A stretch of 64,000 nucleotides of DNA from assembly GCA_030019255.1 (NCBI GenBank), contig JASEFK010000002.1, positions 233,347 through 297,346 of the forward strand. Direction: 5' to 3'. Source of the stretch: Actinomycetota bacterium. GTDB taxonomy: Bacteria > Actinomycetota > Geothermincolia > Geothermincolales > RBG-13-55-18. Each line of letters opens with the position of its first letter. Within the stretch, counting starts at the first letter, position 1. The translations under genes were made by a program, and so were the position numbers. The notes under the pieces are model-generated. The model was not told where the DNA came from. It was given only the letters and a program-made list of their open reading frames with translations, and searched no databases. Positions 37,174 through 63,874 of this stretch are shown here, piece after piece.

Positions 37174-37258
37174 TGGTGCGAGAGGGGGGACTCGAACCCC
37201 CACGGTCTGAACCACTGGATCCTAAGTCCAGCGCGTCTACCGATTCCGCCACTCTCGC
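37174..37258 (-). tRNA. tRNA-Leu (anticodon TAG)
   Basis: The acceptor stem GCGAGAG pairs with CTCTCGC; the anticodon loop CTTAGGA gives TAG; a long variable arm (class II) and TTCGAGT T-loop are present; the CCA end is encoded. Confidence 0.95.
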
Positions 37259-37358
37259 CCGTCTTCGGGGGCGTAAATCATGCTACTACAGGCAAGGTGA
37301 CAAGGCAATAAATCCGCCTTTCCGGGGGGCCGGGGGCGATGCGCGGAACGTGCGCCGT

Positions 37359-37367
37359 TGCTATAAT
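37359..37367 (+). promoter_or_regulatory. Extended -10 promoter of the tRNA-Arg/tRNA-His pair
   Basis: TGCTATAAT, a consensus extended -10, lies 21 bases before the mature 5' end of tRNA-Arg. Confidence 0.6.
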
Positions 37368-37388
37368 AACCTTGCTCCTTGAAAACAC

Positions 37389-37464
37389 GCGCCTGTAGCT
37401 CAATGGATAGAGCAACGGACTTCTAATCCGTGGGTTGGAGGTTCGAGTCCTCCCAGGCGTGCCA
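37389..37464 (+). tRNA. tRNA-Arg (anticodon TCT)
   Basis: 76 bases including encoded CCA. The acceptor GCGCCTG pairs with CAGGCGT, the anticodon stem ACGGA/TCCGT encloses loop CTTCTAA, and the T-loop is GTTCGAGTC. Confidence 0.95.
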
Positions 37465-37474
37465 GAAATCGGCG

Positions 37475-37550
37475 GTGGGGGTAGCTCAATCGGCAGAGCA
37501 CTGGGTTGTGGCCCCAGAGGTCGCGGGTTCGAGTCCCGTCCCTCACCCCA
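37475..37550 (+). tRNA. tRNA-His (anticodon GTG)
   Basis: The anticodon loop TTGTGGC gives GTG. The acceptor GTGGGGG pairs with CCCTCAC; G at 37474 can serve as the extra G-1 opposite C73. CCA is encoded. It lies 10 bases after tRNA-Arg, so one transcript is likely. Confidence 0.95.
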
Positions 37551-37706
37551 TTTTTTTCACCAAATCCTGTTCGGACCAGGGAAGGCGGTAAAGTCATCCC
37601 TTTTATGGTCCTGTCCGCGGAGGTAAGCCGCATGCTCCCTCCCCATCCCGCCAGCCCGGAACCCCGCGGGTCCGGTCACCAGCGGCAAAGGGAGACGCGG
37701 GGGCCG

Positions 37707-38308
37707 TCATTTCTCCTCCTGCTCCACAAGGAGGGCGCGCGCGCTGCGCCTCTCCTCCGTCCTCCTGCGGGCCAGGGGAAGCAGGGTTAAAAGGAGGAAA
37801 AGAAGGGAGAGGGCCGCGGCGTAGTACCTTTCCGCGTCGGGGGAGATATCCACCTCCCTTCCGGGCTGTAGCACGGTCAAGGACGAGGCGTGGATGTCAA
37901 AGTCGCCGCCGTGCTCGGCGCAGTCGGCGTGGAAGACGCCGCGTACCTCCACCGTATCCCCCATGCTGCCGTGCCTTCCCAGGCGACCGATCTTCTCCGC
38001 CTCCTCCGCCGGCAACCATACCCCGATGCCGCTGTTGCCCCCCGCAGTTCTCCCGCCTCGTGCAGGGCGTTGAGGCTGTAATGGTCGTCGTTTACCGTCA
38101 CCCAGGCGTGCTCCCCCCTCACCATGACGTCACCCACCACCTCCCCCCGGAAGACGACCTCCTGCCCGTCGTACCTCTCCCATTCCTGGAGGAGGGTCCC
38201 GCTGTTCACTTCCTCCGGCACGCCCCCCAGGGCCGCCGAAGGGTGGAGAAAAAGCACCCAGAAGGTGCAGAGCGCCAGGGGCACAAGCAAGCGCAGCGCC
38301 CTCTTCAT
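37707..38308 (-). pseudogene. Secreted/membrane OB-fold-like protein gene with a frameshift
   Basis: The first frame gives a signal peptide (LLVPLALCTFWVLFLHPSAALGG) and DGQEVVFRGEVVGDVMVRGEH, an OB-like strand pattern. After GELRG at a run of six C (38038-38043) the sense moves to the next frame: GNSGIGVWLPAEEAEKIGRL, TVEVRGVFHADCAEHGGDFD and a C-terminal membrane helix. Joined, the product would be about 200 residues. Either the gene is broken or the run was miscounted. It is next to the equally frameshifted trkH. No family name is justified. Confidence 0.65.
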
Positions 38309-38309
38309 C

Positions 38310-39796
38310 TCATCTCCTCCTCCCCAAGCGGAGCAGGAAAACGAACATGGCCAGGACCGCCAGCACCTCCAGCCTCCCCGCCCACATCTCGAAGATGTAG
38401 GTCACCTTGAGCAGGGCGGGCATGGTCCAGGAGGTGAGCCCGGTGGTCAGTCCCACGTTTCCCGCCGCGGAGACCGACTCGAAGGCGGAGGCGGTAAGCC
38501 CGTACCCGTAGAAGAGCCCCACCACCGTGCCCAGGAAATACAGGCCCAGGTAAAGGAGGGTAACCAGGAAGGCCGTGGAGGCCAGCTCCTCGTTGAGGGT
38601 GTAATCGCGGATGTGGTGAAAGCGCTCCAGCACCACCGCCGATGAGGGGGAGAGGGTCTTGCGGACACGGCGCTTGATGTCCTTCCCCATGATTCCTACC
38701 CGGATGGCTTTCACCGCGCCGGAGGTGGAACAGGAACAGCCTCCCAGGCCCATGGCCACGATGAGGCCAGGTCCCCCCACCTGGCTCCCATCTGGGGACC
38801 GTACACGGTCATGAACCCGGTCCCGCTGTGAGCGGAGACCAGCTGGTAGACTCCCCGCCGCAGGTCGGAGGCGAAGCCGGAGAAGGTACCGGCCAGGGTG
38901 AGTCCCGCCAGCACCAGCCCCAGGGTGACCAGGAGGGTGAGGGTGAGGGTCCGGGTCTCGATGTTGCGCCGGAGCTCCCCGAACTTTCCGCTCCATACCT
39001 CGTACTGCACGGAGAAGTTGAGCATCCCCAGGACCATGAAGATCATGGTTATGAGCTCCACCGGGAGGCTGTGATAGTAGAGGACGGACTGCGCCTAGGG
39101 AGTGAACCCGCCGGTGTCGAAGCCGGCCATGAAGAGGCAGGCGGCATGAAAGAAGGAGCGCACCGGGGCCATCCCCTGGAGGAGGAGACACAACCCCAGG
39201 GAGAGGATTCCCGCCGCCAGGTAGGCCAGGCTTACCTTCCAGATGAAACGCGAGCTCTCCACCACGTTGGGCAGGATGTTCTCCCGTCCCTCCCCCGTGT
39301 AGAGCTGGGCGGCGGCGCTGGAGCCGGCCATGAAGTAGGAGACCACCAGCACCACGATCCCCTGGCCGCCCAGGAACATGATCAGGTGGCGCCAGAGGTT
39401 CATCCCGTAGGCCATGTGGTCCAGGTCGTGGACCAGGGTCAGGCCGGTGGTGGCCAGCCCGGACATGGACTCGAAACAGGCGTCCAGGTAGGAAGCGTAA
39501 TGGCCGCTGAAATACAGGGGCAGGGCGGAAAAAAAGCATGGCTGCCAGCCAGGAGAGGGCTACGATGACCAGCCCCTGGTTCCAGGTGATGCGGCCCCGG
39601 GGGCGAAGGAGGAAGAAGAGGAGGTTCCCCACCCCACGGTGATACAGAGGGTAATGAAGAGGTCCAGCACGCTCGCCCACTCGCCGGCCACCAGGGAAAC
39701 CACCAGGGGAACGGCCATGCACAGGCCCAGGGCGATGAGAACCAGGCCCACGTAATGGAATATGTTCTCGATGTCCTCGCGGTAAGGTGCGGTCAT
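38310..39796 (-). pseudogene. trkH: TrkH-type potassium transporter gene, interrupted by frameshifts and a stop
   Basis: Pieces of a full TrkH lie in order but in two alternating frames: MTAPYREDIENIFHYVGLVL, then GRITWNQGLVIVALSWLAAM, then SGLATTGLTLVHDLDHM and GGFTP, then QSVLYYHSLPVELITMIF, AHSGTGFMTVYGPQMG, and finally LGGCSCSTSGAVKAIRVGIM and SAAGNVGLTTGL. Changes of frame fall near 39630, at a run of seven A (39529-39535) and at six C (38773-38778); an in-frame TAG (39095-39097) follows GGFTP. TrkH is the K+ channel subunit of Trk/Ktr. No trkA gene is adjacent. Confidence 0.8.
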
Positions 39797-39855
39797 CTCA
39801 AGGGCTCCCGTCTCCGGCCTGGGGGCGTCGCCCGGGCTGTCCTCCCGCCTTCGTC

Positions 39856-40482
39856 CTAGTCCACGTACAACTCAAGGTAGCTAACCACGGCCCTGGAGGT
39901 GGGCCGGAAGTCTCCCATGTCATGACGGTAGAGGCAATCGCGCAGCGGTCCCAGGTCCCGGCCATCCCAGGCGCACCGGGCCCCGGTGACCTTGTAGATG
40001 CGGTGGAGCCGGAAACGGCTGCGCCTCCCCAGCTCGGTGACCCCGGCGATCCTCTGCCCGGGATCGGTTCCCAGCAGGGGAGCGGAAAGGCGCGGCAGGA
40101 GGCGGCAGTAGAGCGGGTTGCGGGCCACCCCATCCGGGATGCGCGGCGCGATGGAGTTCACCACCCGGAGGGGCATGGTCTCCCCGTACTCCACCTCCAT
40201 CCTCAGCTCCCCTCGCTCGCCCGTGTCCGCCTCGATCACCCAGCGTCCATCCACACGGCGGGAGACGATGGGGGTCACCACCCGGCGGTCGAAGCGGTGG
40301 ATACCGGAGACGAGGTCCCCGCTCTCCTCTCCGCTCACGTAGAGGGTGCGGAAATCGTCCGGGGTGAAATGGAAGATCGCACGATAGGGTCCCACCGGGG
40401 TGTCCTCCCAATCCTCAACCAGGAAGACGTCGTGGGGACCGAACTGCAGGGTGGGAATGAACCAGCCCCTCTCCACCAACAT
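39856..40482 (-). CDS. Hypothetical protein
   Basis: A 208-residue soluble protein with no signal peptide or membrane helix. It starts MLVERGWFIPTLQFGPHDVF and is rich in beta-type segments and Arg/Asp (YRAIFHFTPDDFRTLYVSG, RWVIEADTGERGELRMEVEY). No motif is recognised. Its stop is 59 bases from the trkH start, so it may be cotranscribed with trkH. Codon use matches the neighbours. Confidence 0.6.
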   Translation of the reverse strand: MLVERGWFIPTLQFGPHDVFLVEDWEDTPVGPYRAIFHFTPDDFRTLYVSGEESGDLVSGIHRFDRRVVTPIVSRRVDGRWVIEADTGERGELRMEVEYGETMPLRVVNSIAPRIPDGVARNPLYCRLLPRLSAPLLGTDPGQRIAGVTELGRRSRFRLHRIYKVTGARCAWDGRDLGPLRDCLYRHDMGDFRPTSRAVVSYLELYVD

Positions 40483-40555
40483 CCCTTATCCCCCCTTCCT
40501 CCGCTACCCTCCCACGCCGCGCTCCAGTCCAGAGAGCATGAAGCCCGTTAAAATC

Positions 40556-40633
40556 TGGTCGGGGTGGGCGGATTTGAACCGCCGACCTCATGCTCCCAAA
40601 GCATGCGCGCTGACCAAGCTGCGCCACACCCCG
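40556..40633 (-). tRNA. tRNA-Pro (anticodon TGG)
   Basis: 78 bases with encoded CCA. The acceptor CGGGGTG pairs with CACCCCG, and stem CATGC/GCATG encloses loop TTTGGGA. The T-loop is TTCAAAT. Confidence 0.95.
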
Positions 40634-41186
40634 ACGGGTTGATTATAGCAGTAACCCCCGGCGCCTTTAAGGTCTGGTCTCGCCTTTCGCGTTCCCACGC
40701 GGTCCCTGTCCTCTCCCCAAGGAACCGTGCGCCTGGCCCCGAATGACCCTGCCGCCGGGCGAGCATACTCCTCTTGCGGGGACGACGAGGGTCGGCTCCC
40801 CTTTCCGGTTCGATCCTTTCCCGCGATTCTAGGTCCTCCCCCGCACCTTCCCCGATCCATGCAGGACTCCTCACGCCGTCCCGCAGGGCCATTAGCGATC
40901 CTGGGACTCCGAACGCACCGCCCCTTCATGCCTTGCTTCGAGACCGGAAACTCTCCCATCCCCCACCGTGGAGCCTTGTCCAACCCTGAGGCTCCCGGCT
41001 CGCTCCACCTGAGACCCTTCGCGAGCATGAGGGCCCCGCCTTCCGTGGCCAGGGGATCGCTGCTGAACCCTAAACCTCGAACGCGACCCTCCTTGCATCC
41101 TCCCCTGCCACCCGGAGAACCTCTCCCTTCCCCGCCGAAGGGTTATGATAAAATTAGTTGCGCCGGAATCCTCCGGCCGCATGCGG
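40634..41186. other. Gap between two divergent tRNAs, with the tRNA-Gly promoter
   Basis: No gene is seen in these 550 bases. At 41146-41154 TGATAAAAT is an extended -10 on the plus strand, 33 bases before tRNA-Gly. A GCCGGA/TCCGGC hairpin (41162-41177) lies in the precursor leader. Confidence 0.5.
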
Positions 41187-41262
41187 GCGGGAGTAGCTCA
41201 GGTGGAAGAGCGAGAGCCTTCCAAGCTCTAGGTCGCGGGTTCGAGGCCCGTCTCCCGCTCCA
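41187..41262 (+). tRNA. tRNA-Gly (anticodon TCC)
   Basis: 76 bases with encoded CCA. The acceptor GCGGGAG pairs with CTCCCGC; stem AGAGC/GCTCT encloses loop CTTCCAA. It is followed at once by a T7 run, which may help end transcription. Confidence 0.95.
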
Positions 41263-49168: not shown

Positions 49169-49519
49169 GGGGGCGAAACGGCTTCGACAGGGATCGGCGG
49201 CCGCAGTGGGAGCGAGTCGGGGGCCCGCGCCCCGTCAGCAAGCGGGAAAACAAATAGACGCCGACAGCGAGTTGGCTCTGGCCGCTTAATGTAGGCGGCC
49301 CGTCCCTCCCCGGGAGGCCCGCGACCGGGGAAGGGGCGTCGCGCAGCGGGCTGGCCGAGGCCCAACTCCCGTGAGGGCCGAGGGACTACCTGACCGGGAT
49401 AGCTCCCGGCGAGCCGTTCGCCGGGCGGACCGGGAGCGAAAGACAATACGGCGGATACGCTCGTAGAGCCCACGCGGTCGGATTTCTGGACGGGGGTTCG
49501 ACTCCCCCCGCCTCCACCA
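49169..49519 (+). ncRNA. ssrA: Transfer-messenger RNA (tmRNA)
   Basis: 351 bases. The 5' GGGGGCGAAACGGCTTCGAC and the 3' GGACGGGGGTTCGACTCCCC then CGCCTCCACCA form the tRNA-like domain (GGGGGCG pairs with CGCCTCC). The tag frame starts with GAC at 49257 and reads DADSELALAA, then TAA (49287-49289). With the Ala from the charged tmRNA the tag is ADADSELALAA, ending in the ClpXP-recognised ALAA. Confidence 0.95.
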
Positions 49520-62818: not shown

Positions 62819-63367
62819 TCATCCTCCCGGCTCGATCAAACCGTAGTTCCCGTCTCTTCTTCTATAGACGACGTTGGTTTCCTCCGTCTCCGAGTTGATA
62901 AAGACGAAGAAATCGTGCCCTACCAGTTCCATCTGCAGGCAGGCCTCCTCGGGGGTCATGGGCTTGAGGGGAAAGCTCTTGGTCTTCACGATCACCGGCT
63001 CCTTTTCCTCCTCTTCCTCCTCAGGTAGGAGGGCCGGCTCCTTGAAGGGGTTCCGAGCGTGATGGTGACGGTCGATGAGCTTCCTCTTAACCTTGCGGGC
63101 CTGGCGTTCCAGCTTGGCGCAGACCAGGTCGATGGCCTGGTACATGTCCGGGGCCGATTCCTTGGCCCGTATCACCGGTCCGCTGGAGAAGATGGTCACC
63201 TCCACCACCTGGTTCTCCTGGATCTTGGGGTTCTTCTCCACGCTCAGTTCTATCTCCGTCTTGATGATGCGGTCCAAGTACTTCCCGACCCGCCCCACCT
63301 TCTCCATGGCGTAATCGCGCAGGGCGTCGGTTACCTCCAGGTTCTTCCCCTTGACGATGATCTGCAT
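62819..63367 (-). CDS. hpf: Long-form ribosome hibernation promoting factor (HPF/RaiA)
   Basis: A 182-residue long HPF. The N-terminal S30AE domain (MQIIVKGKNLEVTDALRDYA, KVGRVGKYL, VEVTIFSSGPVIRAKE, MYQAIDLVCAKLERQARKVK) blocks the A/P sites. A Glu-rich linker leads to the C-terminal dimerisation domain (KSFPLKPMTPEEACLQMELV, GHDFFVFINSETEETNVVYR) that forms 100S ribosomes. The start is ATG 63367 behind GGGAGA. A structured RNA of the raiA type lies upstream. Confidence 0.95.
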   Translation of the reverse strand: MQIIVKGKNLEVTDALRDYAMEKVGRVGKYLDRIIKTEIELSVEKNPKIQENQVVEVTIFSSGPVIRAKESAPDMYQAIDLVCAKLERQARKVKRKLIDRHHHARNPFKEPALLPEEEEEEKEPVIVKTKSFPLKPMTPEEACLQMELVGHDFFVFINSETEETNVVYRRRDGNYGLIEPGG

Positions 63368-63614
63368 GTCCTCTTCTCCCTTCCTCCTTGCGTAAAAAGC
63401 CCATACCATAGGTCAGGGTATGGGCCTGCGACGTGATCGCCTTCCGCTCCCGGGCCCCCTCCCTGGAGGGGTCCCTACAAGCGACGCGCATAAGGTTAGC
63501 ATATGATGTAATCCCTGCCAAACCCGGAGCCGGATGCCCACGGCTCGCGCCGTTTCCTGCCGGGGACGGCGCCTCCCGACCCCGCACCGCGTGCTCCGAG
63601 AACGCCTTTAAGGA

Positions 63615-63862
63615 GGAAGGCTTCGAAGCCCGGCTGACCTGGTCTTTGCCCCCACACTCGCCTGCTGAGCGGCTCGCAGCGGGCGGGAATACCCCGCGGG
63701 AACGTCTCCTCGCCCGCCACTACTACGCTTCTCCGGCTCTACGGCCGGGCAGGACTTACCCCTAAGCCGCACCATGCTCACCAACCAAGAGTTGGCTTAC
63801 GTGGGTCGTTTCGCCTGCGGCTGGCATCGACTTTCAACCACAGACCCGGGTCGAAGCCTTCC
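63615..63862 (-). ncRNA. raiA-type structured RNA upstream of hpf
   Basis: On the minus strand a -10 TATAAT places the start at about 63862. The first 12 bases (GGAAGGCTTCGA) pair exactly with TCGAAGCCTTCC at the other end (63626-63615), closing a 248-base RNA. Inside are hairpins such as CCAAC/GTTGG (63781-63795) and CCGGC/GCCGG (63733-63748), and no credible frame. The raiA motif RNA is known by comparative genomics from the 5' side of raiA/hpf genes in Firmicutes and Actinobacteria, with a similar size. The name rests on location, size and the closing stem, not on a covariance search. Confidence 0.65.
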
Positions 63863-63868
63863 GCCTAT

Positions 63869-63874
63869 ATTATA
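63869..63874 (-). promoter_or_regulatory. -10 box for the raiA-type RNA/hpf transcript
   Basis: TATAAT on the minus strand; the predicted start seven bases on coincides with the first base of the RNA's closing stem. No TTGACA is seen 16-18 bases upstream. Confidence 0.55.

Follow-up and report, generated by a model that had tools for sequence, protein, structure and literature searches.

A raiA/ModT noncoding RNA gene between comFC and hpf in a Geothermincolales genome, with a separate terminator-like hairpin ahead of hpf

Structured RNAs encoded just ahead of a ribosome hibernation gene invite the question of whether they control that gene or merely adjoin it. The case considered here lies in a 64,000-nucleotide stretch (the window) of an actinobacterial genome assigned to the class Geothermincolia of the Actinomycetota and to the same order as Candidatus Geothermincola primus. 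An initial annotation had proposed a raiA-type RNA upstream of hpf, either independent of or cotranscribed with that gene. Below we consider the identity of the RNA, its surroundings in related genomes, and the leader that separates it from hpf. Coordinates are collected in Table 1.

Table 1. Features of the raiA RNA-hpf region, in window coordinates.
Feature	Position	Strand	Basis or remark
raiA/ModT RNA (RF03072)	63615..63862	-	predicted start to end of closing stem; Rfam match, outer stem, covariation
-10 box of raiA RNA, TATAAT	63869..63874	-	sequence; predicted start 63862
P1 outer stem, 5' arm	63851..63866	-	pairing and arm covariation
P1 outer stem, 3' arm	63611..63626	-	pairing and arm covariation
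pk1 pseudoknot, 5' half, AGCCGCA, P3 loop	63816..63822	-	pairs with 63765-63771
pk1 pseudoknot, 3' half, UGCGGCU, pk-loop	63765..63771	-	pairs with 63816-63822
P6-P7-P8 domain	63661..63753	-	larger "variant 2" form, without P2 insert; alignment and pair counts
hpf promoter-like element, TTGGCA-N17-TAACCT	63493..63521	-	conserved in family leaders
Terminator-like hairpin GCCCATACC/GGTATGGGC + U5	63394..63425	-	U tract about 30 bases ahead of hpf ATG
hpf (long ribosome hibernation promoting factor), 182 aa	62819..63367	-	Pfam PF02482 (S30AE), PF16321 (S30AE_C)

Identity, fold and covariation of the RNA

The Rfam/Infernal covariance-model search returned a full-length match to RF03072 (raiA) at 63854-63623 on the minus strand (169.6 bits, E 7.5e-43), which covered model positions 1-209 of 209 and lay far above the curated cut-off of 101.3 bits. 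The identity, extent and strand proposed in the initial annotation are borne out by this match together with the closing stem, the -10 box and the fold, and both strand and promoter are those expected of an RNA transcribed in the direction of hpf. Pairing outside the model widens the element to 63862-63615, or about 248 bases, whose folding energy is better than that of 200 of 200 shuffles (z -3.7). Judged by match and fold, the element is a genuine raiA/ModT noncoding RNA gene, belonging to a widespread bacterial class; as such it is an ordinary further example of something already known, and the less expected item at the locus is a separate conserved terminator-like hairpin ahead of hpf.

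The closing stem is as exact as had been claimed: the P1 arms at 63615-63626 and 63851-63862 are perfect reverse complements over 12 pairs, and the stem lengthens to 15 of 16 pairs if 63611-63626 and 63851-63866 are taken. Its outer part coevolves among relatives, with a mean pairing energy of -9.9 kcal/mol for arms of the same locus against -6.2 kcal/mol for swapped arms, a result equalled in none of 5000 permutations. Covariation is likewise strong within the core and pseudoknot. Across 40 sequences, 96.9% of cells in 48 pairs, the seven of the pseudoknot pk1 among them, are standard, and two-sided change occurs in 28 of the 48. None of 500 shuffles, which ignore the relatedness of the sequences, reached the observed pairing or two-sided change, and slid versions also came nowhere near; with so large an effect, and with the slid versions as a control, a chance origin is implausible. 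The seven pairs of pk1 are intact here, with 99.3% of cells paired across the 40 genomes and two-sided change at four pairs, and they fit the pk-1 contact between P3 loop and pk-loop defined by cryo-EM (PMC11751092).

The RNA shares with the RF03072 class its core helices, pk1, and variant 2 of the P6-P7-P8 domain (the variants are described in PMC11751092), as well as a comFC gene upstream, hpf/raiA downstream and one copy per genome. The closing stem of this family is longer than that of the class, the P2 insert is lacking (as it is in the ModT RNA of Clostridioides difficile), the 3' U tract is weak, and a separate promoter-like element and hairpin precede hpf. Compared with the cryo-EM structure of the Clostridium acetobutylicum raiA RNA (9CXF; PMC11751092), the 7-bp pseudoknot between P3 loop and pk-loop, the UUGAAA of the three-way junction, the A-rich internal loop and the P6-P8 domain recur, while P1 in this family has an outer, bulged part that reaches beyond the Rfam model; differences in the variable parts P5, P7 and P8 were taken relative to the Rfam consensus rather than base by base against 9CXF.

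Promoter, 3' end and neighbouring genes

A TATAAT box at 63874-63869, followed by a six-base discriminator, would place the transcription start on 63862, where the P1 stem begins, as foreseen in the initial annotation. TATAAT-type boxes stand at about equal distance from the RNA in 14 of 14 family members. The further description of promoter and end as sharply defined held for the -10 box only. The sigma-70 scan found the -10 and no -35, and none is conserved by eye in the family alignment; at the 3' end, the bases following P1 read CCUUCCUCCUUAAAGG, a weak U tract.

Many relatives, however, carry a U tract directly 3' of P1, and the average over 40 genomes peaks just past the stem (T fractions of 0.55 and 0.43 at +5 to +14, against about 0.2 elsewhere). 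Because this rise is so sharp, many species of the phylum probably use P1 as the stem of a terminator as well. Such an arrangement could serve to control hpf in cis, with P1 and U tract forming a terminator and the opening of P1, by a ligand or by misfolding, allowing read-through into hpf. The position of the peak would suit this reading, as would Rfam's typing of RF03072 as Cis-reg and the placement of P1 and U tract 35-53 bases ahead of the hpf ATG in L033, L034, L040 and L041. A U tract is, however, equally expected of a plain noncoding RNA terminator, and the one in this genome is weak, while hpf has a promoter-like element of its own with a second terminator-like hairpin in between. Trans complementation has moreover been reported in Clostridia (PMC11706538), and synteny with hpf is not obligatory. 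We therefore consider cis control of this kind unlikely, though a P1/U-tract terminator may operate in some lineages.

Synteny merits closer description. At this locus hpf lies on the same strand as the RNA, its ATG at 63367 being 247 bases past 63615, in line with the distance of some 250 bases given at the outset. A ComFC-like gene encoding a double zinc ribbon and a PRTase (L031:7583-8353) lies upstream, and the order comFC - raiA RNA - hpf is the published one, for which frequencies of 74% (comFC) and 66% (raiA) are quoted in PMC11706538. The RNA is single-copy in this genome, present in 14 of 15 genomes of the family, and found exactly once in 29 of 31 genomes of the class. As the remaining two also lack a match to hpf, their missing copies are likely due to assembly gaps.

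Elsewhere the neighbourhood is looser. In L032 the RNA and hpf are divergently oriented with about 2 kb between them, in G056 they are 86 kb apart, and within the phylum the RNA also occurs upstream of csp; at some loci the gene behind it encodes a zinc-ribbon or a solute-binding-protein-like product. Since both the identity and the distance of its neighbours vary, the RNA has no fixed link to hpf. The 3' end could be recognised at 72 named loci, most of them from Bacillota; among these, the commonest single class of next gene lies 37-71 bases beyond the RNA and encodes a short zinc-ribbon protein (27 of the 72 by a strict pattern, with a few more by eye). The Bacillota version of this neighbour (L044-L123; for example L058, L050 and L045) is about 80-100 aa long and reads MYxDKTLxCKDCGxEFVFTAGEQEFYAEKGF. 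The csp gene, which encodes a cold-shock protein, sits between the RNA and hpf in other families of the class (L003, L005, L009, L012, L016, L021-L024 and L028), several of these loci having a terminator ahead of hpf. The window also contains a tmRNA gene at 49169-49519 on the plus strand (150.9 bits) and tRNA genes at 37177-41259.

The leader of hpf

Two elements that the initial annotation did not mention lie between the RNA and hpf. One is a promoter-like element, whose TTGGCA-like and TAnnnT boxes recur with N17 spacing in 13 of the 14 aligned hpf leaders of the family; in the fourteenth (L018) it lies upstream of an insertion. That insertion, of about 200 bases between hairpin and hpf, contains a long inverted repeat (GGCATAGGGGTCGGCCCTGGGCTTATGCC-like) and resembles a small mobile element bearing its own U tract.

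The other is the terminator-like hairpin. Its pattern, GCCCATACC/GGTATGGG, occurs once per genome and always ahead of hpf in 12 genomes of four genera (that of the window, and L006, L008, L010, L014, L018-L020, L025-L027 and L029), with no occurrence elsewhere in those genomes. All 17 stem bases (GCCCAUACC/GGUAUGGG) are invariant among the 12. The hpf genes of these genomes, by contrast, keep just 3 of 28 fourfold sites unchanged, with a pairwise identity of 0.58, and identity over the 40 bases preceding the hairpin is 38%. Hairpins were found in 15 of 17 hpf leaders across the order, as against 6 of 139 control genes, and sister families (L002, L035 and L042) possess one of similar structure but different sequence at the same place. 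The terminator scan permits loops of up to eight bases and hence did not list this hairpin, the loop of which has nine. Two members of genus g3, L011 and L015, are without it and have kept both the RNA and the promoter-like element.

As transcripts from the promoter-like element must cross the hairpin, these observations suggest that it is a possible attenuator of hpf. No conserved antiterminator for it was found, and RNAalifold recovered essentially no consensus structure from the MAFFT alignment of the leaders, because these cannot be aligned outside promoter, hairpin and Shine-Dalgarno (SD) sequence. Nor did Rfam supply a second element between the RNA and hpf, its sole other match being a chance, sub-threshold one.

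Switching at the level of translation was also considered. In this genome the P1 3' arm (CCUUCCUCCUU) could pair without a mismatch over 11 bases with AAGGAGGAAGG, the hpf SD region, so that an opened P1 might mask the ribosome-binding site. Among 14 family members, however, arms pair no better with their own SD (-15.6 kcal/mol) than with swapped ones (-16.0 kcal/mol), and 77% of permutations are at least as good. The match reflects composition, namely purine-rich SDs and pyrimidine-rich arms, and is not conserved; we rejected this switch as highly improbable. More generally, no conserved expression platform for an hpf riboswitch emerged: anti-SD pairing is unconserved, and the downstream gene and its distance vary.

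A standalone RNA acting in trans

With a conserved promoter-like element of its own and an intervening terminator-like hairpin, hpf is more plausibly transcribed separately from the RNA than together with it, so that of the two options initially left open the independent one is favoured and cotranscription less so. The two are probably separate transcription units in the Geothermincolales lineage, to judge from these leader elements. As a counterpoint, gaps of only about 29-54 bases between the RNA and hpf in some Actinomycetota (L033, L034, L037 and L039-L041) leave little room for an hpf promoter, and such spacing hints at a cis component there.

We favour, with a probability of roughly three in four, the reading that the raiA RNA is a standalone, stable and abundant noncoding RNA gene with its own promoter that acts in trans and does not switch hpf here. 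Judging from promoter anatomy, its transcript would begin at the -10-directed start at 63862, apart from that of hpf; the closed P1 and compact fold would shield it, rendering it stable and abundant; and at transitions in growth it would act in trans, in the manner of its C. difficile and C. acetobutylicum relatives. Its position beside comFC and hpf would then represent ancestral synteny. By homology with ModT, a housekeeping-like role in trans, as in Clostridia, is most likely, Clostridia being the only group in which a trans role has been shown for the class.

The clostridial systems offer the closest comparison. In C. difficile, ModT is very abundant and stable, is transcribed from a single sigma-A start, acts in trans by complementation, and affects the stationary-phase transition and c-di-GMP (PMC11706538). 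It shares with the present RNA the sigma-A-type -10 and a comFC-like gene upstream, and its isoforms of 215 and 260 nt are of similar length; its downstream gene encodes a PTS antiterminator in place of hpf, and a terminator close by ends its long isoform (PMC11706538). For the present RNA, the distance to the next terminator-like hairpin is about 190 bases, with another promoter-like element coming first. Genetic work on C. acetobutylicum, as cited in PMC11706538 and PMC11477304, likewise describes a growth-transition role in trans. With a trans role at growth transitions and a cryo-EM structure published in 2024-2025 (PMC11706538, PMC11751092), the initial description of the class as poorly understood no longer holds in full. 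The stationary-phase expression that had been guessed would also differ from expectation, since ModT levels are high during exponential growth and for the most part drop in stationary phase (PMC11706538).

How such an RNA might act is a matter on which PMC11751092 and PMC11706538 both put forward catalysis, for example as an RNA-processing ribozyme in trans. The complex, compact fold, its pseudoknots and its deep conservation would be in keeping with this, but the raiA RNA literature examined reports no activity, and we regard the proposal as quite improbable; it is compatible with the standalone trans-acting reading, for which it would supply the molecular step.

We may also speculate, while holding the scenario to be unlikely, that the RNA has a dual role in actinobacterial lineages, acting in trans while its P1 and U tract serve as a premature terminator limiting read-through into hpf. 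Under this scenario control would have passed, in Geothermincolales, to the new invariant hairpin and its U tract, which, behind a separate promoter, would form an hpf attenuator that some factor recognises. The locus thus adds a well-defined actinobacterial member to the raiA RNA class, and its hpf hairpin makes the limiting of a hibernation factor by premature termination a concrete question.
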